From Bacteroidales bacterium (GTDB lineage: Bacteria > Bacteroidota > Bacteroidia > Bacteroidales > UBA932): DNA of 60,796 nt. The position numbers and the translations under genes were made by a program. Below are positions 2-54,744 of the stretch, in pieces (the stretch's first letter is position 1; each line of letters starts with the position of its first letter). The notes beneath the pieces were generated by a model. That model was not told the origin of the DNA, searched no databases, and worked only from the letters and a program-made list of their open reading frames with translations. The DNA lies in NCBI GenBank assembly GCA_017471045.1, contig JAFUWZ010000006.1:1-60796 (forward strand). The letters are read 5' to 3'.

Positions 2-562
2 GCCCTGGGCGCAGAATTCTTCGACTTCTACACGGAACTCAAGAATGCAAAGGACATTGTCTTCACCTTTACCGAGGAGCAGCAGGACAAGTTCAACGCC
101 GTCTTCGAGGAGCTCCAATATGAAACGGTTCTCCGCTGCAACGTCGACATCGTCTCCTCCGTCCGCCGCCTGGGCCTTGTCACCTTCCGCATCGCCATGA
201 TCTTCTCTGCCCTCCGCATCATGGAAGACGGTGTATTTGAACAGGCCCTCACCTGCCGGGAAGACGATTACGAAAACGCCCTCCACGTCGCCCGCACCCT
301 CCTGGAACATATCATCGGCGTGTACAACACCCTTCCCCACATCTCTACCCCCATCAAGGCCCCTGCCGATGCCCGCACCTTCAGCAAGCAGAAGTTCTGG
401 TCCGACCTCCCGCCCCAGTTCGACACCCAAACCTTCCTTCAGACCGCCTCCGCCCTTGCCATTGCCCCCAAAACCGCCGAGAAATACATCACCGCCTGGT
501 GCAAGAGTGGGCAACTGGTGAGAGTGGCGCAAGGGAAATATAGTAAGTCAATAACACTGTAG
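2..562 (+). CDS. DUF3987-type mobile-element protein, C-terminal part
   Basis: The reading frame is open from base 2, so the N-terminus lies outside the window; about 186 residues remain. The stretch RRLGLVTFRIAMIFSALRIM followed by a helical region and a C-terminal winged-helix-like end (TAEKYITAWCKSGQLVRV) resembles the C-terminus of DUF3987 primase/helicase-like proteins carried by Bacteroidales integrative elements. Their exact role is not established; they usually sit beside VirE-like or primase genes in mobile regions. The composition is lower in GC than the core genes to the right, supporting an accessory origin. The family call is from motif memory. Confidence 0.6.
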   Translation, partial: ALGAEFFDFYTELKNAKDIVFTFTEEQQDKFNAVFEELQYETVLRCNVDIVSSVRRLGLVTFRIAMIFSALRIMEDGVFEQALTCREDDYENALHVARTLLEHIIGVYNTLPHISTPIKAPADARTFSKQKFWSDLPPQFDTQTFLQTASALAIAPKTAEKYITAWCKSGQLVRVAQGKYSKSITL

Positions 563-608
563 ATGCATTAGTAACTATGTGCCGTATTACTTCTTAACAA
601 AAAAGCAT

Positions 609-616
609 TATCTTTG
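609..616 (+). promoter_or_regulatory. Bacteroidota -7 box upstream of structured leader
   Basis: TATCTTTG matches the TAnnTTTG -7 consensus. No clear TTTG is seen 19-21 bp upstream, so this is a partial match. Transcription would start near 623 and run through the structured stretch that ends before the gene at 903. Confidence 0.5.
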
Positions 617-880
617 TAGAACCTTCCTTCGGGAAGATGACATATCTGCGAAAGTGTTTTTCGTCAGCCTCTAAAGAAAATGTGGCAGTTTTCAAATCGA
701 AGAGGGCTCCGTATGACACTCCGCTCGTCATTGATTATGCAGGCTGACCCTAATAGATCGGCACTTCATATCGGACGAGTGTGGAGTAACCGGTCTGCCT
801 ATTCTTCGGGGTTTGCCACAACCTTCTTTGGTAGGATTTGATACGAACTCCACACTTTTGTTAAGATTTGTAAGGTTTGC
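617..880 (+). ncRNA. Putative structured leader or small RNA with alternative pairings
   Basis: This non-coding stretch of about 265 nt follows a -7 box and precedes the small exported protein at 903. Visible pairings are GTCAGCCT (663-670) with AGGCTGAC (741-748), and GTGTGGAGT (779-787) with ACTCCACAC (847-855) followed by a short T-rich stretch. A competing pairing is also possible: ACTCC and CTCGTC (718-729) with GACGAG and GGAGT (774-787). Mutually exclusive helices suit an attenuator, a cis-regulatory leader or a stand-alone RNA. No tmRNA, RNase P, SRP or 6S signature was recognised. Confidence 0.35.
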
Positions 881-902
881 ATAACAATAGATTTAATAGC
901 GT

Positions 903-1442
903 ATGAATATGAAAAGAATTCTTTTAACTGTCATTTTCGTGATGTCTGCCTTATTACTCAAGGCACAAACAATTGATGGAATCATACCGTTAACACTCTC
1001 TGATGGCGGAGTGGTTTCCGGCCCCATTTCATATAAGGATGGAAAACTCTTTAATTCACTGGGAAATGCTATCACGAAAGATCAAGGTACGAGCTACTTC
1101 CAAGGAGCGCAGTACGAAGGCTTTATCAAAGCCACTCGAAAGACAAAGACCGCCAATATTCTCAACAATATTGGCGCCTATTGCATAGGATTTGCCATCG
1201 GTTATCCTATTGGATCGATGATTGCTGGCGGAGATGTGAAAGAAGCCCTGAAGGTTTCAGCTATTGGAGTTGGTTGCAGTGTCCCGTTCCTGTCTGTTGG
1301 CATCCCCCTATGGGTCTCCGGTAAAAAAACGCTTAAAGGGATAGCGGAAGAATACAATGCTTCACTTCAAAACCAATCCTATAATCCAACCTTCAATGTC
1401 GGCAGTACTTCCAATGGCCTGGGCATAACCTATAACTTCTAA
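903..1442 (+). CDS. Small exported protein with hydrophobic glycine-rich segment
   Basis: The 179-residue protein starts with a signal peptide (MNMKRILLTVIFVMSALLLKA, cleavage probably after KAQ). The mature part begins with a beta-rich stretch (residues 25-65). A glycine-rich hydrophobic region follows (about 95-145, containing IGFAIGYPIGSMIAGG), which could be one or two membrane segments. The C-terminus ends GLGITYNF, the aromatic final residue being common in outer-membrane proteins. The function is not recognised. It lies 11 bp before the DUF4419 gene in the same direction, so the two may be co-transcribed from the leader at 609-880. Confidence 0.6.
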   Translation: MNMKRILLTVIFVMSALLLKAQTIDGIIPLTLSDGGVVSGPISYKDGKLFNSLGNAITKDQGTSYFQGAQYEGFIKATRKTKTANILNNIGAYCIGFAIGYPIGSMIAGGDVKEALKVSAIGVGCSVPFLSVGIPLWVSGKKTLKGIAEEYNASLQNQSYNPTFNVGSTSNGLGITYNF

Positions 1443-1453
1443 ACCGGTTCGTC

Positions 1454-3731
1454 ATGAAGCGCATCTTTTTGCTGTATATAGGTCTTATGATGGTTGTGTT
1501 CTCCAACGCGCAACCTTCCCGTTTAATACTTGACAAGAGGGGTGGAAGCATAACTTTCGCAGTTGACGAAGTGGAACATCCCACGAGTCATTGTGGCTGG
1601 CGCACGAGCGGAGCTGAATTGGCCAAAGGGCTTAATCAGAATATAGAAGGCAATCTGTTCTCTGACTGGAAACCGGAACTGCTGGCCAATAGCTTTTCCG
1701 ATGAAAAAGACCTGTACGATATCGGCGAGGATGTCCTGTTCTCGATGCTGTTGAAGGCATGGTGCCAGCATCGGCCCATTACTCTTAGTCCGGATGCTAT
1801 CTGGCTGGTCATCTGCCAGCAGGTAAGCTATTGCATCAATGAGAATCCGGAGCAGTACCGGACGCACCTGGTGAACCATGAGGGGAAAAAGGAACTGAAA
1901 GTGGAAACCCGCGACGACCTTTTCTCCAACCAGGCCGACTGGGCCGGGCTCATTGCCGGGTTTTACGGCCGGAATCGGCAAATACACGAACAACGATATT
2001 GCGGCGTCGCTTGTAGCCGATTTTTCCACTACCGGGCCGGATGAACTCATTGCATCTGAAGTGACGCTGATGGATGTTGTCAAGCCGTACTTTGAATATA
2101 CTGCCGTCTATGCAGTTTGCGGTATTCCGTCTATCACCCTTACCGGAACGCCGGAGGATTGGCAGAAAGTTTTGGAAAAGACCCGTTCCCTAACTGCGCT
2201 TGGTTTTGGCTGGTGGACATCGGATCTGGAGCCCATTCTGGAAGAGTTCGTCAATGCATCGGAGGGACATCCGGATTATTGGTTCTGGAAAGATATCGTA
2301 AAGAAAACCCGTCCCCAGACCATACAGGGGCCAAATTGTTTAAAACGCCGAGAGAAACAGACAAAGTTCGACGGCAGGTTCCTGAAATTCTTCCCATATG
2401 ACAATAAAGGCCGCACTCCTGATGAAGTGACCCTTACGCAGACTATGCTGCCGGAAACTGTAGTTGTGCCGTTCAAATACCAGGTGGTCTCGCCGGTTGG
2501 CGTAGTTTTGAGCGAGACACCGCTGGAACTGGTTGCGGGGATTGTGGGCGTTACGGAAGATGCCATCGACTTACGGATGACCCCCAAGATAGGATGGTTC
2601 GTCCGCACCGTGAAAAGCGGTGATTCAGTGGCGCAGAATCCGGATTCAGTCGTTGCAACTTCGGGTCCTGAATTGACGATGGAGTCTTCCATACGGTATT
2701 GGGACAACGGCCCCCTGTCATGGGCAGACCTTTCGACAAGGGAAAACGAACTTCCCCAGATAACGGGGTTCGAATATGGCATCTCCTGGGACACGGGCCG
2801 CCGAAAAATAGGGAATACCCTTATCCGCATCCCGGAGTCCCGCAGTTATATGAATCCCTTTTCCTCTTGGGTCCATCCGGATTTCCGGACTCCGGAGATG
2901 CTTCGGTATATCCAGACAGGATTTAACTATGTAGAAATCTGCCGTCGGAGTGCGCAGAATGATTATTTGACGGGCTCCAATTTCAGTTATCCAAATGTGA
3001 TGCATTTCCATTTGGATGTAGCTGAGAGTTTTCTTGCCAAGATGAAAGACGAAACGCGGCAGGGCCTGGATACCGCTGTCGTGAATTACTATTCACGCCG
3101 CGTCCAGAACGAACTTGCCCAGATTGGGAATGCGGAGTTCTCAGATCTGAGAATCTATCCCCGGGGATTTGGTATCGGCGCTCATTTGGGCGTGGGAAGT
3201 GAATTCTATACCGGGCCGATGGCAGCATACGTAACCCCCATTGCTGGTTTGGACTTCGGTTTTGATTTTACGTTCAGCCGCTTTAACCTCTATCTGAGCG
3301 GCCTGTTGGGACAGGGTGGAACCTATAAGAAGGATATCCAGCGGGATGGGTATCAGTGGAATGCGGGAGAGAAGATGAAAGGCGGTAATATGGAGGCATC
3401 ATTGGGATATACAGTGTATGATTCGCAGTGGTGGAGGCTCGTCCCCTTTGCCGGAATCGGCGTAGGCTTTATTGACTACCCATACCACCCCGTGAACCCG
3501 GATAAGAAAACCGATGAGATATCCGGCTTCCGCTTTCAGGCCGGTCTTTCTACAGATTTCAAATTCTATAGGGTCGTTGAGTATCTTCCCATGGCTGGCG
3601 GTTTAACCGAGTTTACGGTTCGCGCCAGACTCTACGCTGCTCATACAGCATTTCCGGCACCAGCACCCGCATGGACAATCAATTTTGGCCTGAGTGCCAA
3701 CATGTTGGCGTGGATTCTTAAGAAGAAATAG
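1454..3731 (+). pseudogene. DUF4419 protein with C-terminal barrel-like domain, frameshifted
   Basis: The gene opens with a signal peptide (MKRIFLLYIGLMMVVFSNAQ) and continues through the first part of a DUF4419 domain (PITLSPDAIWLVICQQVS) until the frame goes wrong near 1961-1964. The next frame carries on directly (GKYTNNDIAASLVADFSTT) and is open to 3731. Removing one T from the TTTT run at 1961-1964 restores GFTAGIGKYTNN and a single protein of about 760 residues. After the DUF4419 part (to about 3120) comes a region rich in alternating aromatic and glycine residues (3180-3731) that looks like a small outer-membrane beta-barrel. DUF4419 has no firmly known function. The lesion may be real or a homopolymer error. 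Confidence 0.65.
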
Positions 3732-3765
3732 GCCTTCCGAATATAGGGGAAGGCCTATTAATAAT
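3729..3765 (+). terminator. Rho-independent terminator after DUF4419 gene
   Basis: A 10-bp perfect stem, TAGGCCTTCC (3729-3738) with GGAAGGCCTA (3748-3757), has a 9-nt loop and is followed by TTAATAATT. The stem begins at the stop codon of the DUF4419 frame. Being symmetric, it could also help end the convergent RloB transcript. Confidence 0.75.
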
Positions 3766-3806
3766 TAATCACTATTGTCTTATCGAAGAAAGAAGCCTTT
3801 GTTGAC

Positions 3807-4403
3807 TTACTTGTTTGGAGTTGCCGTCTCAGAAAAGAGGTTAATGGCTCGATATATCTCTGAATATGATTCGTCACCCGGCCCCAAAAGAGCGGCACGT
3901 TCACATGCTTCTTTTAAATGGTTGTCAGCACAAAGGTCTGCAACCCAGGACAACTTCTCCAAGAATGAGCCGGTCTTTTCATATCCCGGAATGAATCTTT
4001 TTAGAACACGGATGACAGAACCCGAATCATTGAAGTACTTATTGGTATTCACATAATGGATTAGGAACCAGAATTCAATGGAGGGCATACTGTCGCAGAT
4101 AAGCACGCGGTCATTTTGGTCGTAATGAGCCTTCATATCCAGAAGCTTCTTGCGCCGTTCCTCGCTCGTCCGAGTAATGTCCGCATCACAGACGCATACA
4201 GCTATACCTCCATTTTGAAGCACCCACTCAATCAGTTTCTGCATTTCCTCGTATGACTGGTGGGAGAAAAACCGGGGCTTACAATCATATCGGAATCCTT
4301 TGAGTGCCCGAAGGTGTTCAAAGTACCATCGCTCGGTCAGTCCCTCTCCTATCACGGTAATCCGTGAGCGTTTTATCTCACGCTCTTTCCTTGCTCTTGC
4401 CAT
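3807..4403 (-). CDS. RloB-like protein (AbiLii-type, Toprim-like nuclease candidate)
   Basis: The 198-residue protein has RloB features. Near the N-terminus is VIGEGLTERWYFEHLR, whose acidic residue sits where Toprim-like folds carry their catalytic glutamate. CDADITRTSEERR follows as a DxD-like acidic motif, then SMPSIEFWFLIHY, the family's usual NP-x-E-x-W-like segment. RloB proteins are encoded with AAA ATPases (RloA) in restriction-linked islands, and the pair matches lactococcal AbiLi/AbiLii. The likely role is the toxic effector, possibly acting on RNA or DNA, held in check or triggered by the ATPase. It starts 5 nt after the ATPase stop, so the genes form one operon. The target is unknown. 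Confidence 0.7.
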   Translation of the reverse strand: MARARKEREIKRSRITVIGEGLTERWYFEHLRALKGFRYDCKPRFFSHQSYEEMQKLIEWVLQNGGIAVCVCDADITRTSEERRKKLLDMKAHYDQNDRVLICDSMPSIEFWFLIHYVNTNKYFNDSGSVIRVLKRFIPGYEKTGSFLEKLSWVADLCADNHLKEACERAALLGPGDESYSEIYRAINLFSETATPNK

Positions 4404-47405: not shown

Positions 47406-48725
47406 TCAGAAGCTGAGAGGGAGGCCTCGGTAGAAGTCGAGGAGACGGGAGGAGTAGAGCTGCTCGTAACGGGCACGGGCTAGGTTGGATTCGGCCTCGA
47501 GGTAGCGGGCCTTGGACTCGTTGAACTCCGTGCTGTTCGCCTGGCCGAGCTCATACCTGGCCTGCATCAGGTCGAAGGCCTCGCTGGCCGAAGCGGCGGC
47601 AGACAGGCTGCTGCGGTACTTCTCTTGGGCATTGACGGCATTGTAGTACGCCTGCTGGATCTCCTTGTAGAGCGATTTCTTGACGTTTTCCAGTTGAAGT
47701 TGCTGACTCTTGTAAGAAAGCTGGGCTGCGCGCAGGTTGTTGCGGTTGGAAAAACGCGTGAAGACCGGTACGCTCAGGCTCAGGCCCAGGTATTGGCTGA
47801 AATTGTTCTTCATCTGGTCGGAAAACTTGGCCGAGCCGATCCCGGACGAAGTATAATAGTTGGAACCGATACCTCCGCTCAAAGACAGCGAGGGCAGGAA
47901 AGCACCCTTCGCCAGGTCGATGTTGGCCTGCGCGTAATCGAGGCGGATCTGCTCCGCTTCCACTATGGGCTTGATCTCCACCGCCTCGGCGTAGATCGCC
48001 TCCGGCGAAAGCAGCAGTCCCGGCTCCAGGACCTCGTCCAAGGGCACTACAACATCGAAGCCCTCCGGCGAAGGGAGTTCCAGCAGCTGCGTCAGGTCCA
48101 GCAGCGCCATAGAGAGCGTCCCTTCGGCCTGGACGGCCGTAGAACGGCTCTGGGCCAGGGTCGCCTGCTGCGCCGCGACTTCAGCGCCGGACGCCCGGCC
48201 CCGACGGGCCATCTCCTCCAACCGCACCACCTGCAGGGAATCGATCTCCACCTGGCAGCGGGCCACAGCCAACAGCTCTTTGTCGTAGAGAATCTGGACA
48301 TAGGCCTGGGCGACAGCCACGCGGATGTCGTCCCGTGCCTTTTCCAGGTCAACGGTCGCGGCCGCCAGGTTCAATTTGCTCATCGCAATACTGTTCTTAA
48401 TCTGGAAACCCTGGAACAGAGGGACATCCGAACCCAGACTGAATCCTGTACTGGTCGTATTGGTATTGGCGTATGTGTTATCCGCCGTCAAGCCGCGGCC
48501 GAAAGAGAAGTTTTGCGAAGCATTGCCGCTCAGCGAAGGCAGACGCCGGGCCTCCGCCGTGCTGAGTTCGACTTCGCGCTGGGCGGCGCTGATCTCGTTC
48601 TGCCGAACCGTCAGGTTGTGGTCCAGCGCATAGTCGATGCACTGCGACAGGCTCCAGGGGGAAGACTGCCCCCAGGCACTCCACGCGGCCAGCAGTCCGG
48701 CCGCCACCATAAACACTTTCTTCAT
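47406..48725 (-). CDS. TolC-family outer-membrane efflux protein
   Basis: A 439-residue outer-membrane channel subunit. Signal peptide MKKVFMVAAGLLAAWSAWGQ, then the first outer-membrane-factor repeat (WSLSQCIDYALDHNLTVRQN ... RLPSLSGNASQNFSFGRGL) and the second (ALDLTQLLELPS; GAFLPSLSLSGGIGSNYY). Long coiled-coil helices are rich in A/E/Q. It completes a TolC-adaptor-ABC export system and is the last gene of the operon, 6 bp after the adaptor gene. Confidence 0.92.
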   Translation of the reverse strand: MKKVFMVAAGLLAAWSAWGQSSPWSLSQCIDYALDHNLTVRQNEISAAQREVELSTAEARRLPSLSGNASQNFSFGRGLTADNTYANTNTTSTGFSLGSDVPLFQGFQIKNSIAMSKLNLAAATVDLEKARDDIRVAVAQAYVQILYDKELLAVARCQVEIDSLQVVRLEEMARRGRASGAEVAAQQATLAQSRSTAVQAEGTLSMALLDLTQLLELPSPEGFDVVVPLDEVLEPGLLLSPEAIYAEAVEIKPIVEAEQIRLDYAQANIDLAKGAFLPSLSLSGGIGSNYYTSSGIGSAKFSDQMKNNFSQYLGLSLSVPVFTRFSNRNNLRAAQLSYKSQQLQLENVKKSLYKEIQQAYYNAVNAQEKYRSSLSAAASASEAFDLMQARYELGQANSTEFNESKARYLEAESNLARARYEQLYSSRLLDFYRGLPLSF

Positions 48726-48731
48726 AGGACT

Positions 48732-49841
48732 CTAGCGTTTCTTTTCATCGAAAATCTGGTTGCCCCGCACCTTCGCTCCCAGGCTCAGGCCGTCCTTGAT
48801 TTCGATCTGGATTCCGTCGCTGATGCCGGTACGCACCGGGGTGCGGACGTAAGCGCCGTCCTCACCCAGCACGTAAACATAAGTGGAATCCCCGGCAAAC
48901 TCCAGGGCGCTTTCCGGCACGGACAGCGCCTGGGACTCTTCCTGCAGGACGATCTCGGCATTGGCGCTGTAGCCGGAACGGATGGTCTGGCCCGGAGGGA
49001 CCTGGACCGCCGCCTTGATCTCGAACTGGTTGGAACCGTTGTTCTCCACCGCTTTCGGAGCAATATACTCCAGCCTGGCGTCGAAGGTATAGTCCTGCAA
49101 AGCACCGATGGTGATGATCACGGGCATTCCTTCCGACAAGGAACCGACTTCCGTCTCATCGATGTTGCCGTCGAAGATGAGGTCGTCCATATTGGCCACC
49201 GTCGCGACGGTCGTGCCTTCGTTGAGCGTGTTGGCCTGGATGACGGAGTTGCCGACCTTGACCGGAATGTCCAGGATCAGGCCCGAAATCGTCGAACGCA
49301 CGAGGGTCGAACTTCCCGTCGCATTGGACGAGGAAACACCGTCCCGGATGACTTCCAGGGCATCCTTGGCAGCAGCCCGCTCCTCCTGGGCCTGGTTGAG
49401 GGCCTGGAGGACCTTTTCGTACTCGTCCGCACTGACGAGTTTCTGGTCGAAGAGCGCTTTTTCCCGCTCATAATTGGTCTGCGCCTGCCTGAGGTTGATC
49501 TCGGCCAGGCGCACCCGGCTCTGGGCGGAACTCAGGGAATTCATATCCGGGATGACCTTGAGTTTGGCGATCACCTCGTTGGCGGCGACTTCCTGGCCGG
49601 CCTCCTTGTAGAGCTCGGAGATGATGCCGTTGATCTGCGGCTTGATATTGACCTCGTTGCGCGGCTGGATCTTGCCGGTCACGACCGTGGTGCGGCGGAT
49701 ATCGGTCCGCACGACTTCCAGTTCCTGATACTTGACCTCTTTGGGCCGGGACTTCTTGTACAGGAAGACAAAGGTCCCGAGGAAGATCAGCGCCACGAGG
49801 GCGATCCAAAAATACCTGAAAAGTTTCTTCATATCATCCAT
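48732..49841 (-). CDS. Periplasmic adaptor protein (MacA/HlyD-like)
   Basis: A 369-residue membrane-fusion protein with an N-terminal membrane anchor (YFWIALVALIFLGTFVFLY). The lipoyl-like halves are TTVVTGKIQPRNEVNIKPQI and STISGLILDIPVKVGNSV, separated by a coiled-coil hairpin (about 95-165, NLRQAQTNYEREKALFDQ). A beta-barrel and C-terminal membrane-proximal domain (YVYVLGEDGAYVRTPVRTGI) follow. It bridges the ABC permeases and the TolC-like channel; substrate unknown. Confidence 0.9.
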   Translation of the reverse strand: MDDMKKLFRYFWIALVALIFLGTFVFLYKKSRPKEVKYQELEVVRTDIRRTTVVTGKIQPRNEVNIKPQINGIISELYKEAGQEVAANEVIAKLKVIPDMNSLSSAQSRVRLAEINLRQAQTNYEREKALFDQKLVSADEYEKVLQALNQAQEERAAAKDALEVIRDGVSSSNATGSSTLVRSTISGLILDIPVKVGNSVIQANTLNEGTTVATVANMDDLIFDGNIDETEVGSLSEGMPVIITIGALQDYTFDARLEYIAPKAVENNGSNQFEIKAAVQVPPGQTIRSGYSANAEIVLQEESQALSVPESALEFAGDSTYVYVLGEDGAYVRTPVRTGISDGIQIEIKDGLSLGAKVRGNQIFDEKKR

Positions 49842-49847
49842 TCTTTA

Positions 49848-51077
49848 TTATTCGTCTCTCATGGCATCCACCGGCTTGATGGCCATCGCCCGGGAAGCCG
49901 GAGCCAGGCCCGCCAGCACGCCCATGCCCGCCAGCAGCAGGGCGGCGCCGATCGCGGTCCAGAACCCGATCTGGAAGCCGGCATCGGGTTTGAGGGCATC
50001 TGCGCCTGCCAGCACCAGAACGGACACGACGATCCCGAACATCCCCGCCACCACGGTGAGGGTGATACTCTCCAGCATGATCTGCAACAGGATATCCCGG
50101 GGCGTGGCACCGATGGCCCGGCGGATGCCGATCTCGGTGGTACGCTCGCGCACTGTCACCATCATGATGTTGCTCACGCCGATCGCACCGGCCAGCAAGG
50201 TGCCCAGCCCGACCAGCAGGATCAGGAAATTGAGCCCGCGGAAGAGGTTGTCCACCATCGAGAAGATCTGCTCGGTATTGATCGAGAACAACGCCTGCTC
50301 GTCACCAGGATCGAAACGATGCTCCCGGGCAACGATGTTTCGGATCCGGTCATTGAGCGTCGACATCTTCACGCCTTTCTTCCCTGTCAGGCAGATCAAA
50401 TCCACATTGTTTCCCCGACGGAGAATCTTCTGGGCTACCGGAAGGGGGATGATCACCGTCTCGTCGGCGCTGCCGTTGATACTGAAATTGCCGGCATTGA
50501 AGTCTACGCCTACGATCTGGTAGTACAGCGACCCAGCCTGTATATAGGTCCCGCAGGGATCTTCTCCGGTCGGGAACAAGGCCTCATAGATGCGTTTCCC
50601 GATGACGCAGACTTTCCGTTCCTGCAAGACATCCACCTCATTGAGATAACGTCCGTAGCGGATCTTGGGTGACTCGACCTGCGCATAATCCGCCTTGACC
50701 CCCTTGAGCGTGCAGTTGGCCGTTTTGTTGTCAAAAATGGCCGTTATTCCCCAGCTGCTGACGACGGGCGTGACAACGTCCAGCTCCGGGACCATCAGAC
50801 GGAGCCGGTCCACGTCCCGGTAGGAAAGCGTCCACCAGCGGCCCTCTCTCAAGCCCTGCCAGGGCTTGGTTGTCAGCCCGCCGCGGAGAATGACCGTGTT
50901 GGTGGCGAATCCCTCGAAGTTTGCCGACAGCATAGACTTCAGGCCATGGCCGCCGCCCAGCATCACCAAGAGCATGAACAGGCCCCAGAAGATCCCGAAT
51001 CCGGTCAGCAGGGTCCGGCTCTTGCCCCGCAAGAGCGTATCCAGAATTTCCTTGAAACTGTCCCTGTCTATCCGCAT
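49848..51077 (-). CDS. MacB/FtsX-type ABC transporter permease
   Basis: A 409-residue permease: an N-terminal helix (SRTLLTGFGIFWGLFMLLVM), a large periplasmic MacB_PCD domain (about 45-270), then three C-terminal helices of the FtsX domain (GIGVSNIMMVTVRERTTEIG-like region, here GVSNIMMVTVRERTTEIGIR; GATPRDILLQIMLESITLTV). Such permeases use mechanotransmission to push substrates out of the periplasm. It is encoded 4 bp after its paralogue. Confidence 0.9.
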   Translation of the reverse strand: MRIDRDSFKEILDTLLRGKSRTLLTGFGIFWGLFMLLVMLGGGHGLKSMLSANFEGFATNTVILRGGLTTKPWQGLREGRWWTLSYRDVDRLRLMVPELDVVTPVVSSWGITAIFDNKTANCTLKGVKADYAQVESPKIRYGRYLNEVDVLQERKVCVIGKRIYEALFPTGEDPCGTYIQAGSLYYQIVGVDFNAGNFSINGSADETVIIPLPVAQKILRRGNNVDLICLTGKKGVKMSTLNDRIRNIVAREHRFDPGDEQALFSINTEQIFSMVDNLFRGLNFLILLVGLGTLLAGAIGVSNIMMVTVRERTTEIGIRRAIGATPRDILLQIMLESITLTVVAGMFGIVVSVLVLAGADALKPDAGFQIGFWTAIGAALLLAGMGVLAGLAPASRAMAIKPVDAMRDE

Positions 51078-51081
51078 GGCT

Positions 51082-52353
51082 TTATTCGGCCCGGAGGGCC
51101 TCTATGGGTCTTACTTTGGCGGCTTTGATGGCCGGGAAAAGGCCGGCGAGCGTCCCGGCGATCATCAGCAGTGCCGTCGCTTCGAGCGCAACGCTGACAT
51201 CTACAAACGGGTCCTTGAGCATCTGGACCGATTCCCCGAACAACTCTACCCGGGAAGCCCCTACCGTCGCATTCAGCACTTCACAGGCTGCCAGGCCCAG
51301 AATCATTCCGACATACCCGAACAGCGCCGTGATCGTCACGCTCTCGCCGATGATCAGCTTGTTGATCTGCCAGGGGTTGGCCCCGATCGCCTTGCGGATG
51401 CCGAACTCCCGGGTCCGCTCCTTGACGGTGATGAGCATGATGTTGCCCACGCCCACGATTCCGCTCAGCAAAGTAAACAATCCGATGATCCAGAGGGCGG
51501 TCCGGAGAATACCGGTCGCCTTCTCCATCTGAAGGTTCTGCGTGTAGCGGTTCCAGATCCAGAGGGCCGCCCGGTCTTCGGGATGCGCACGATGCCGGCT
51601 GAGGATGGCAGCCTGGTAACGCTTCTGGAACTCGTCGTTTTCCTGCTCGGACTCCAGGCCATGGAAAGTGAAGACGATATTCTCCAGCACGTCTCCTTTC
51701 CGATAAATGGTGCGCAGGGTGGTAAACGGGACATAAATCTCCTCCCACATCGAATCCTCCCGTGATTGATAGATACCGACCACCTGGTACATCAGGTTGC
51801 CGACTTGGACGTGGCGTCCCAGCATCTCTTCATAATCCTTCCTCCCGTCCAGCAGATTCTTTACGTGGCTCATCGCCAACAGGGCCACTTTCTTGCGGCC
51901 GGCGATGTCCTGCGGATTGAGGGAGCGGCCGGCGACGATCTCCACCTTGTTCATCTCCTCGTATTCGGGATAGATGCCCCGCAGGTAGCCGTCCATGATG
52001 CGCTTGCCATAGACCACTTTCATCCCATTCTGGGTCAGCGATGCCGTGACCTGGTCGATATTTTCGGAGAACAGACCGCTCTTCGTCACATCCACATCCT
52101 TCTGATCCAGCTGAATGAAGCGTCCGCTCTTGAGGCCGTCGTAGGGCATCGTGGTATACCAGCCATTGATCTGCATCGTATTGACCAGGACATCATTGCC
52201 GTTCTGCAGGAACGCGTTCATCAAACCATTCCCGGCTCCGAGCAGCACGATGATCATGAAGATGCCCCACGCCACCGAGAAGCCGGTGAGCGCAGTGCGC
52301 AGCTTGTTGCGCCGCAGGGATTCGAGGATTTCGGTCAGCAGGTCCCGCATCAC
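51082..52353 (-). CDS. MacB/FtsX-type ABC transporter permease
   Basis: A 423-residue paralogue of the next gene with the same layout: helix LRTALTGFSVAWGIFMIIVL, periplasmic domain about 45-280, and the FtsX part with GNIMLITVKERTREFGIRKA and GANPWQINKLIIGESVTITA. Two unlike permeases suggest a heterodimeric transporter using the single ATPase upstream. The start overlaps the ATPase stop by 4 bp. Confidence 0.9.
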   Translation of the reverse strand: MMRDLLTEILESLRRNKLRTALTGFSVAWGIFMIIVLLGAGNGLMNAFLQNGNDVLVNTMQINGWYTTMPYDGLKSGRFIQLDQKDVDVTKSGLFSENIDQVTASLTQNGMKVVYGKRIMDGYLRGIYPEYEEMNKVEIVAGRSLNPQDIAGRKKVALLAMSHVKNLLDGRKDYEEMLGRHVQVGNLMYQVVGIYQSREDSMWEEIYVPFTTLRTIYRKGDVLENIVFTFHGLESEQENDEFQKRYQAAILSRHRAHPEDRAALWIWNRYTQNLQMEKATGILRTALWIIGLFTLLSGIVGVGNIMLITVKERTREFGIRKAIGANPWQINKLIIGESVTITALFGYVGMILGLAACEVLNATVGASRVELFGESVQMLKDPFVDVSVALEATALLMIAGTLAGLFPAIKAAKVRPIEALRAE

Positions 52354-53072
52354 TTCATCACGGTTGTGCGGCCGAATGCCGAAGCCTCATGCCGTTGGTT
52401 TTGCTCGATCTGCCCGATGATGCCATCCTTGATGTGGATGATCTTGTCGGTACAGTTCGCTACGCCGCTCTCATGGGTCACGATGATGACCGTCATGCCT
52501 TCTTCCTTGTTGAGCCGGGTGAGAAGATCCATCACCTCGACGCTCGTCCGCGAATCCAGCGCGCCGGTCGGCTCATCGGCGAGGATGATGCGGGGCCGGG
52601 TGATCAAGGCGCGGGCGATCGCCACGCGCTGTTTCTGGCCGCCGGACATCTCGTTGGGGTAGTGCTGCGCCCAGTCTCTGAGGCCGAGCCGCTCCAGATA
52701 CGCCAGGGCCATCTCGTGCCGCTTCTTGCGGGAAACGCCCTGGTAGAAAAGCGGAAGCTCGACATTCTCGACCGCCGTCTTGAACGGGATCAGGTTGAAG
52801 GACTGGAAGATGAAACCGATCATCCGGTTGCGGTAATCGGCGGCCTGCCGCTCGCTCAGGTCCCGGATCAGGCGCCCGTCCAGCCAGTACTCGCCCGTGT
52901 CGTAGTTGTCCAGGATCCCGAGGATATTGAGCAGCGTGGACTTGCCCGATCCCGAAGCGCCCATGATGGAGACGAACTCCCCCGTATCGATGGAAAGATC
53001 GATCCCCTTCAGCACATGCAGGGGCTGCCCGTTGTCGTAGGTCTTGTTGATCCCTTTCAGTTCGATCAGCAT
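52350..53072 (-). CDS. ABC transporter ATP-binding protein (MacB/LolD type)
   Basis: A 240-residue ATPase for the two permeases. Walker A MGASGSGKSTLLNILGIL, Q-loop FIFQSFNLIPF, signature NEMSGGQKQRVAIARAL, Walker B RIILADEPTGALDSRTSV, H-loop VIIVTHESGVANC. The Y/N-rich DNYDTGEYWLDG insert is typical of MacB/LolD. First gene of the efflux operon, under the promoter at 53102-53132. Confidence 0.93.
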   Translation of the reverse strand: MLIELKGINKTYDNGQPLHVLKGIDLSIDTGEFVSIMGASGSGKSTLLNILGILDNYDTGEYWLDGRLIRDLSERQAADYRNRMIGFIFQSFNLIPFKTAVENVELPLFYQGVSRKKRHEMALAYLERLGLRDWAQHYPNEMSGGQKQRVAIARALITRPRIILADEPTGALDSRTSVEVMDLLTRLNKEEGMTVIIVTHESGVANCTDKIIHIKDGIIGQIEQNQRHEASAFGRTTVMK

Positions 53073-53101: not shown

Positions 53102-53132
53102 CAAATATAGAAAGAAAAATTCATCCCGCAAG
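53102..53132 (-). promoter_or_regulatory. Promoter of the efflux operon
   Basis: On the minus strand CTTG (53129-53132), 19 bp and TATATTTG (53102-53109) form a Bacteroidota promoter. The -33 lies within the left arm of the inverted repeat at 53124-53166. Confidence 0.7.
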
Positions 53133-53166
53133 AGTTTCCACAAAAATAGTGCAGAATCTTGCGGGA
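53124..53166. repeat. Inverted repeat holding both divergent -33 elements
   Basis: TCCCGCAAGA (53124-53133) and TCTTGCGGGA (53157-53166) are exact inverted copies, 23 bp apart. Each arm supplies the CTTG -33 of the promoter facing away from it. The arrangement suggests a shared regulator site or an extended -33 motif. Confidence 0.75.
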
Positions 53167-53189
53167 AGTCAAGAAATCCCATAACTTTG
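53158..53189 (+). promoter_or_regulatory. Promoter of the hemerythrin-LuxR gene
   Basis: CTTG (53158-53161), 20 bp and TAACTTTG (53182-53189). The ATG at 53195 is 5 nt after the -7 box, so the mRNA should be leaderless or nearly so. Confidence 0.7.
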
Positions 53190-53194
53190 CCTAT

Positions 53195-54136
53195 ATGATC
53201 TCCAAGAACTCCGTTTTCGCCCCGCAGACCAAGGTGGCGGACATGCTGGACTGCAACAACTACCTCATCGACGTGCTGTCCCGCCTCGGGATCAGGCTGG
53301 GCTTCGGCGAAAGCACGATCGAGGAGGCCTCCATCCGTTCCGGCCTGGATCCCGCGACGGTCTGCCTGATCTGCAACGTCTATACTTTCGACGATTACGC
53401 GCCGGACGCGGAAACGCTCTCCAAGGGGCGCATCACCGATGTGGTCAAATACATACGCAACTCACACCGGAACTACCTGACCCGTGAACTGGCGTGGCTT
53501 CAGGATGCGCTCTGCCAGCTGATCCTGTCTTTCAGCGAGAAGCAGCAGAAGGTGATCTGGCGTTTCTTCAACGAATACAAAGCGGAGCTGGAAAAGCATT
53601 TCGCCTATGAGGAAGACAAGGTGCTGCCTTACATCCAGGACCTGCTGTTCGGACGTGACACGCACGGCTTCACCATCTCGGAGTTTGCCCAAAACCACAG
53701 CAACATCGAGGAAAAGCTCAGCGACTTGAAAAACCTGGTGATGAAGACCTTGCCAGACAGCGGCGATCCCGCCCTCCGGGAACACATCCTGCGTTTCCTC
53801 TTTTACTTGCAGAACGACCTGGCCCGGCATACCTTCGTCGAAGACCGGATCCTGACGCCGATGGCCTGGTACATCGAGCATCCCCAGGCGATTCGCTCCT
53901 CGGAAAAGAAGGAAGCGCCGGTACGGGAGGAACTCTCCGACCGCGAGAAAGAGATCCTTGTCAGCGTGGCGAAAGGAATGCTCAACAAAGAGATCGCCGA
54001 CCAATACAACATCTCGATCCATACGGTCATCTCGCACCGCAAGAACATCACCCGCAAGACCGGCATCAAGACGGTCGCCGGCCTGACGGTCTATGCCCTG
54101 CTCAACGACCTGATCGACATCAACACGGTGGAATGA
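53195..54136 (+). CDS. Hemerythrin-LuxR transcription regulator (RIC-like sensor)
   Basis: A 313-residue soluble protein built of three parts. Residues about 12-60 match the ScdA/YtfE N-terminal domain (DUF542) of iron-cluster repair proteins, LSRLGIRLGFGESTIEEASI, but without that domain's Cys pair. Residues about 88-225 are a hemerythrin-like four-helix bundle with di-iron ligand candidates NSHRNYL, EKHFAYEED, QNHSNIEEK and ARHTFVEDR. Residues about 245-305 are a LuxR-type helix-turn-helix (LSDREKEILVSVAKGMLNKE, ISIHTVISHRKNITRKTG). The likely role is sensing NO, oxygen or redox state through the iron site and controlling transcription, perhaps of the divergent efflux operon. The start at 53195 is chosen because the upstream frame would overlap the promoter. 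Confidence 0.85.
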   Translation: MISKNSVFAPQTKVADMLDCNNYLIDVLSRLGIRLGFGESTIEEASIRSGLDPATVCLICNVYTFDDYAPDAETLSKGRITDVVKYIRNSHRNYLTRELAWLQDALCQLILSFSEKQQKVIWRFFNEYKAELEKHFAYEEDKVLPYIQDLLFGRDTHGFTISEFAQNHSNIEEKLSDLKNLVMKTLPDSGDPALREHILRFLFYLQNDLARHTFVEDRILTPMAWYIEHPQAIRSSEKKEAPVREELSDREKEILVSVAKGMLNKEIADQYNISIHTVISHRKNITRKTGIKTVAGLTVYALLNDLIDINTVE

Positions 54137-54744
54137 AGACGACGGCCCAGACCTCGGAGGCGGCACGGGAGGTGCCCGGCGGCGCGCGGCGGATCCTGCT
54201 GCACGCCTGCTGCGCGCCCTGCTCGTCGGCCATCGTGGAGTACCTGATGCAGGGGGGCGTGGAGCCAGTCATCTTCTATTCCAATCCGAACATTTACCCG
54301 CGCGAAGAGTATGAGCACCGGAGGGACGAGTGCGCGCGTTATGCCCGGCACTGGGGCGTGCAGATGGTGGAGGACCGCTACGACCATGCGGCCTGGCGCC
54401 AGGTCGTGCAGGGCCTGGAAGGCGAACCGGAGCGCGGACGGCGCTGCCAGGCGTGCTTCCGTTACCGGCTCGGCCGGGCGGCGGCCTATGCGCAGGAGCA
54501 GGGCTATCCTGTCCTCACGACCACCCTGGCCTCTTCCCGCTGGAAGCGCCTGGACCAGATCGACGAGGCCGGCACCGAGGCTTGTGCGGCCGAGCCGGAC
54601 GTGTGCTGGTGGGACCGCAACTGGCGCAAAGGGGGACTCCAGGAGCGCCGCAACGAGATCATCCGGGAGCAGCAATTCTACAACCAGCGCTATTGCGGCT
54701 GCGAATTCAGCATGGGAAAGATCCAGAGCGATGAACAACATTGA
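54133..54744 (+). CDS. queH: Epoxyqueuosine reductase QueH
   Basis: A 203-residue enzyme for the last step of queuosine tRNA modification, reducing epoxyqueuosine. Cys-rich motifs bind an Fe-S cluster and metal: LLHACCAPCSSAIVEYL, RRCQACFRYRLGRA and QRYCGCEFSMG; TTTLASSRWKRLDQI is the family's central block. The N-terminal 18 residues are poorly conserved-looking. It overlaps the regulator gene by 4 bp (ATGA) and the CYTH gene by 14 bp, so it is translated from the same mRNA. Confidence 0.9.
   Translation: MKTTAQTSEAAREVPGGARRILLHACCAPCSSAIVEYLMQGGVEPVIFYSNPNIYPREEYEHRRDECARYARHWGVQMVEDRYDHAAWRQVVQGLEGEPERGRRCQACFRYRLGRAAAYAQEQGYPVLTTTLASSRWKRLDQIDEAGTEACAAEPDVCWWDRNWRKGGLQERRNEIIREQQFYNQRYCGCEFSMGKIQSDEQH

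Follow-up and report, generated by a model that had tools for sequence, protein, structure and literature searches.

A hemerythrin-LuxR fusion protein of Bacteroidales as a candidate activator of ferrous-iron uptake

We found that a gene on the forward strand of a Bacteroidales contig (53195..54136) encodes a fused hemerythrin-LuxR regulator of 313 amino acids, which is probably a one-component activator of ferrous-iron uptake controlled by its own di-iron centre. The whole stretch of DNA analysed, called here the window, is 60,796 nt long. We favour this reading, which comes from comparison with related bacteria of gut and rumen, because it fits the linkage of the regulator to feoB, a palindrome at fixed spacing from the promoter, the co-occurrence of that palindrome with the regulator and the published induction of related genes by iron starvation. 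The parts that we infer are the binding of the regulator to the palindrome, its role as an activator, and the identity of the signal as iron rather than O2 or NO.

To describe the protein, we combined profile alignments with a structural model, and these confirmed a real gene product that joins a di-iron bundle of the RIC/ScdA type to a LuxR helix-turn-helix. All of its parts lie on the forward strand. The N-terminal helical domain (residues 1–77, 53195..53425) is ScdA_N-like in the profile alignment and in the helices of the model, and aligns to ScdA (9j47) from residue 10. It is followed by a hemerythrin four-helix bundle (residues 80–228, 53432..53878), with the ScdA/YtfE fold according to the profile alignment and structural neighbours, and by a short linker (residues 229–245, 53879..53929) where the pseudo-receiver domain of the split relatives, lost here, once stood. 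The C-terminal GerE/LuxR helix-turn-helix (residues 246–301, 53930..54097) has LiaR, VraR and NarL as structural neighbours and scored 54 bits for GerE, above the Pfam cut-off of 23.5. The helix-turn-helix is shared with the NarL, VraR and LiaR response regulators, but the domain profile search gave no receiver domain match in the window's protein. The window's genome encodes one regulator of this type.

All six di-iron ligands, four His and two Glu, are present in the alignment and in the structural model. They are H91, H135, E139, H168, H212 and E216, whose codons start at 53465, 53597, 53609, 53696, 53828 and 53840 on the forward strand. Each of them is conserved in 64–66 of 66 fused and 29–30 of 30 split relatives; the exceptions among these 96 relative loci, which include some genomes represented twice, are one gapped sequence (L075), one without H168 (L074) and one without two ligands (L095). 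We take the four His and two Glu to be the RIC ligand set, carried on the same fold as in RIC, YtfE and ScdA, with the qualification that in the profile alignment the first His is shifted by one residue in ScdA, so that this ligand may not be an exact equivalent. An earlier note on this DNA had proposed one soluble protein with a hemerythrin di-iron bundle and a LuxR helix-turn-helix, and the domains, the six ligands and the model agree with it. Its suggestion of a transcription factor is supported, and the conserved di-iron site makes it plausible that the metal centre is the direct sensor. The RIC-like N-terminal domain that it described has the ScdA_N-like helices but not the Cys-Cys motif of RIC, which none of the 96 relatives has within its first 70 residues and which is also missing when the protein is aligned with ScdA. 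Differing further from RIC, the window's protein has an additional C-terminal DNA-binding domain and reached 55.2 bits with the NCBIfam RIC model, far below the cut-off of 204.7. Because the motif is absent from all 96 relatives and the cut-off is missed, we consider that this family is not RIC proper.

Just ahead of the gene lies TAACTTTG (53182..53189, forward strand), which corresponds to the Bacteroidetes -7 element TAnnTTTG, the consensus of the -7 region given in the accessible part of PMC7366714. The element stands 5 nt ahead of the ATG, which would imply a very short leader for the regulator transcript.

Similar regulators have been described in Bacteroidales, either as an operon of a hemerythrin protein and a CdhR-type regulator (BT_0519-0520; PG1236-PG1237/cdhR) or as a fused protein in Prevotella intermedia (PIN17_RS10465), in the portion of PMC10434189 available to us. 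According to the same portion, iron starvation induces the split pair 16–20-fold in B. theta and about 7-fold in P. gingivalis; feoB rose 5.9-fold in B. theta, with a P of 0.25, and feoB2 rose 2.2-fold in P. gingivalis. In the available parts of PMC4082711 and PMC10434189, the P. gingivalis CdhR is presented as repressing mfa1 and luxS and as regulating hmuYR, and its iron binding as yet to be shown. These systems resemble the window's relatives in the overlapping or fused arrangement of hemerythrin and LuxR regulator, and they differ from the window's protein in that the latter is a fusion lacking a pseudo-receiver; we base the kinship on the shared architecture and on relatives throughout the order rather than on direct alignment of the published sequences. 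The window's regulator thus appears to be a fused version of the published hemerythrin and CdhR-type pair, minus the pseudo-receiver. The architecture and the iron response are already in print; the palindrome, the feoAB link and the repeated loss of the receiver are new here. In the literature searched, from which subscription papers were mostly left out, the available parts of the papers, including PMC10434189, PMC10101095, PMC4082711, PMC6460266 and PMC13252398, do not mention the operator, the feoAB link or the repeated receiver loss.

Many relatives carry a hemerythrin protein and a separate LuxR regulator gene of 190–205 amino acids in place of the fusion. With the start codon taken nearest the end of the first gene, 45 of 50 split loci have overlapping ORFs. 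The LuxR partner aligns to VraR over nearly its full length (E 1.7e-22), its receiver half matches PF00072 (Response_reg) in just 12 of 43 members, and the phospho-acceptor position in the rows shown is D or, often, N, apart from one A and one G, a pattern that points to a degenerate pseudo-receiver. Fused and split relatives are intermixed in one tree of the hemerythrin domain, in which the label switches at least 8 times, 6 of them forced by starred branches (a quick tree of the 119 of 125 loci kept after dropping identical domains, with long branches flagged). Since a receiver, once lost, is unlikely to return, this distribution indicates repeated fusion, or transfer. A split locus (L079) and two fused loci (L064 and L067) are colinear, with 71–73% DNA identity in the hemerythrin part, 84–88% in the helix-turn-helix part, flanks common to both and about 350 bp missing between the two parts; another split and fused pair (L076 and L060) shows similar colinearity. 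These comparisons indicate that the fusion arose several times through a deletion of about 350 bp that took out the degenerate receiver domain.

The predicted operator is an 18-bp palindrome, ATMCCN8GGKAT or roughly ATMCCNAYAWATNGGKAT, which lies upstream of feoAB as well as numerous regulator genes. At least 7 of its 8 fixed bases were matched in 30 of 40 feoB upstreams (100 shuffle sets: mean 5.0, maximum 9) and all 8 in 17 of 40 (mean 0.23, maximum 2). The palindrome was trained on genus feoB sites (30 of the 60 feoB upstreams examined, which are a selection from the full-length FeoB matches and not all of them), and a leave-one-out version was also made. Upstream of the regulator gene itself, 25 of 125 loci scored above the shuffle 99% level with the matrix, with a gap in the scores between 10 and 5, and the sites include loci of families f5, f18, f21, f25, f34, f41, f79 and f101; the upstream word scan kept 105 of the 125 loci after removal of near-identical upstreams. 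In the window's genome there is one exact palindrome, at feoAB (contig C26, 1625-1642). No exact palindrome occurs within the 60,796 nt of the window, and the best matrix score in the regulator promoter was 0.1, so self-control is not predicted there. The regulator upstreams of four relatives (L060, L061, L063 and L065) show back-to-back -7 elements (TGCAAAGATA...TATCTTTGCA or near), 11–13 bp apart, which form overlapping divergent promoters.

Measured from the centre of the palindrome, the -7 element starts at exactly 31 bp in 48 of 72 sites; three others have a distance of 30 or 32 bp, and in 8 of the 72 nothing resembling a -7 element follows downstream. Across the genus, 26 of 30 exact sites with loci have a perfect (6/6) -7 element at 30–31 bp, as do, by reading of the listings, 18 of the 19 among them that are not at feoB. 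In 576 kb of DNA from relatives, the matrix with this spacing gave 24 matches and each of 10 column-permuted matrices gave 0. Assuming that the -7 element spans -11 to -4, the palindrome would be centred at about -42.5. LuxR-type activators of class II bind near -42.5, and at the feoAB of the window's genome, too, the palindrome closely precedes the -7 element with the fixed spacing; the window's regulator differs from these activators in having a di-iron input domain instead of a pheromone or receiver domain.

The presence of the palindrome follows that of the regulator. The site with its spacing is found upstream of feoB in 27 of 28 genomes with the fused regulator, 13 of 24 with the split form and 2 of 8 in which the regulator is absent or fragmentary. 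The 11 of 24 split-type feoB promoters without it count against the iron reading. Two regulator-absent genomes retain the feoB-upstream site (G031 and G094, 2 of the 7 such genomes with a feoB upstream). Genus-wide, exact palindromes number 78, against 10 for the reversed-pattern control (summed). Of the 78 genomes with the regulator 40 contain such a palindrome, against 0 of the 19 without (p 9e-6); the counts are 32 of 61 versus 0 of 13 at a completeness of at least 80% (p 2e-4) and 22 of 43 versus 0 of 4 at a completeness of at least 90% (p 0.07), all with kinship ignored. Regulator absence here refers to the 19 of 101 genomes without a match to the hemerythrin part, 9 with no match and 10 with helix-turn-helix-only matches judged non-orthologous; four genomes with regulator fragments (G059, G060, G076 and G091) were set aside.

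Other predicted targets were called by a site together with a -7 element. They comprise an outer-membrane-barrel-like protein with no Pfam match (L197 and L207; the protein scanned was its relative in L186), TonB-dependent receptor types (L190 and L194, by likeness to the L182 protein) and a Trep_Strep/ECF-type membrane protein (L209), and also non-iron genes named by eye as enolase-, DnaK- and nagB-like (L188, L193 and L204). In the window's genome, feoAB is a predicted target by its exact site; a DUF4491 gene (L186) is predicted as well, and a ZIP metal transporter (L183) is a possible further target. The DUF4491 gene has a one-mismatch palindrome and a perfect -7 element upstream (contig C73, around 1501) and diverges from an outer-membrane-barrel-like gene; in another locus (L139) a DUF4491-like ORF, by eye, adjoins feoB. 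In one genome (G064, contig C2, 23895-23912), an exact palindrome precedes a Fur-family match by about 70 bp, a possible cross-talk of the two iron regulators.

Analysis of the gene neighbourhoods also connects the regulator with feoB. Linkage was counted from the positions of the matches listed, and among these feoB and the regulator are at most 6 kb apart in 35 of 75 genus genomes with both; within 4 kb, and again among the matches listed, feoB is found in 16 of the 40 genomes with FeoB and a fused regulator and in 19 of the 35 with FeoB and a split one. Linked feoB genes have several orientations, and their FeoB proteins are 56% and 39% identical to the query. At the level of the order, feoB is within 4 kb of the regulator in 8 of 89 genomes with both, in six families, the window's own included (among the matches listed and without a random-pair control). 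Regulator and feoB recur together in 13 of 39 named loci, six of the 13 being close Paludibacteraceae. In the window, as the earlier note had described, the regulator is followed by queH (epoxyqueuosine reductase; 54133..54744, forward strand), which overlaps its stop codon. The same neighbour recurs within 6 kb in 41 of 74 genus genomes with both genes, and queH and feoB are found together in 30 of 87, in each case among the matches listed. Iron uptake and queuosine genes thus keep company in the genus. The feoAB genes of the window's genome are on a different contig (C26), where a queuosine-precursor transporter, QueF-II and feoAB are consecutive (470-4052).

On the other side of the regulator, and divergent from it across a 122-bp intergenic region, is a MacB-type exporter operon (47406..53072, reverse strand) for an ATPase, two permeases, a membrane fusion protein and a TolC-type protein, with its own -7 element TATATTTG (53102..53109, reverse strand). 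The earlier note had linked the regulator to this operon. The exporter is not a chance neighbour, since its permease lies within 6 kb of the regulator, on either side, in 6 of 54 genus genomes with both genes; for the permease and queH, at the same distance limit, the count is 21 of 57, both among the matches listed. Two further genomes (G065 and G080) are possibly cases of linkage across contig ends, with queH pieces on both contigs, and are uncounted for the regulator. The exporter thus recurs chiefly beside queH, and an association of the two is possible. As a target of the regulator it is not supported: no family palindrome with a matrix score of at least 12 was found in the 260 bp upstream of the exporter ATPase in 20 genus genomes or in the window, that is, in 0 of 21 promoters.

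The intergenic region also contains an inverted repeat (53124..53166) with 18-nt arms, 83% complementary and 7 nt apart, through which the regulator might govern the exporter. The divergent arrangement with so strong a repeat, together with the recurrence of the exporter near the regulator and queH, favours this explanation; we judge it very unlikely, as the family palindrome is missing from the exporter promoters and the genome has no second copy of the exact arm pattern. Moreover, exporter and regulator are separated by a gene in the two closest relatives (L058 and L070), and both carry a similar inverted repeat on the exporter's side. The separating gene encodes a GDSL hydrolase (L058 6559-7227; L070 7274-7942) and is missing at that place in the window. 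On the exporter's side in the two relatives the arms read CCTGCA/TGCAGG, and in the window CCCGCA/TGCGGG, with the symmetry preserved. The repeat is not the operator predicted for the regulator, and it may serve the exporter as an operator or RNA element.

It is unlikely that the palindrome belongs to another iron regulator, of the Fur or DtxR type, and that the hemerythrin-LuxR gene is merely its target beside feoB. Such an arrangement would agree with the exact site next to a Fur-family match in G064 and with the iron-regulated, Fur-dependent FeoAB of B. fragilis reported in the accessible part of PMC6460266. Against it, 17 of the 19 genomes without the hemerythrin-LuxR regulator have a Fur-family match and an exact site is absent from all 19; the fixed 31-bp spacing fits an activator better than a repressor, and regulator and feoB recur together in the named loci. 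A switch responding to O2, NO or redox state, in which the di-iron centre binds or is oxidised by these gases and the protein governs a stress response extending to iron and Fe-S genes, seems to us fairly unlikely. In favour of such a switch, the di-iron centre is of the RIC type, QueH is an Fe-S enzyme, and the hemerythrin-like centres of plant BRUTUS proteins are redox-active as well as iron-labile (PMC12022348, accessible part). Opposed to these points are the missing Cys-Cys motif, the predicted target, which is a ferrous-iron importer, and the published induction, which is by iron starvation (PMC10434189, accessible part). The loss of the motif and the ferrous-iron target also speak against the NO specificity that the earlier note had considered.

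For the activator of ferrous-iron uptake, we propose that the RIC-type di-iron bundle would report iron status to the fused LuxR helix-turn-helix, the reported state being most likely the occupancy or the redox state of the di-iron centre. Under iron shortage the regulator would bind as a dimer to the 18-bp palindrome ATMCCNNNNNNNNGGKAT, centred near -42.5, and would recruit RNA polymerase to feoAB; in many relatives the regulator gene itself and genes for outer-membrane and transport proteins would be served in the same way. Weighing against this proposal, besides the split-type feoB promoters without the site, are the missing site at the window's own regulator promoter, the training of the matrix on half of the feoB upstreams, the Fur dependence described for FeoAB in B. 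fragilis, the P of 0.25 for feoB in B. theta, the repressor role of CdhR in P. gingivalis, the co-occurrence test that ignores kinship, the two regulator-absent genomes that retain a site and the predicted targets other than iron genes. The split relatives may act alike with two proteins, the hemerythrin protein and the pseudo-receiver-LuxR protein. Sensing by iron occupancy is modelled, by analogy, on FBXL5 and BRUTUS. FBXL5 is an animal protein with a hemerythrin-like domain that governs iron uptake. In plants, the hemerythrin-like domain of BRUTUS governs iron uptake as well, as stated in the available part of PMC12022348. The hemerythrin-like iron domain is alike in these proteins and in the window's regulator; both FBXL5 and BRUTUS are ubiquitin ligases, not transcription factors, and the likeness is one of analogy only.

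Iron sensing in Bacteroidales is poorly understood, and the concrete operator, the fixed promoter geometry, the feoAB target and the compact fused protein make the question experimentally tractable. That the pseudo-receiver was lost repeatedly suggests that the hemerythrin module is sufficient as an input. We tentatively raise the possibility, to which we give somewhat less than an even chance, that this family is a bacterial counterpart of FBXL5 and BRUTUS, that is, a di-iron iron sensor fused to a DNA-binding domain which would act across Bacteroidales as a positive, non-Fur regulator of feoAB through an 18-bp operator, with hemerythrin having replaced a degenerate receiver several times. 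If this is true, hemerythrin-based iron sensing, as in animals and plants, would extend to bacterial transcription.
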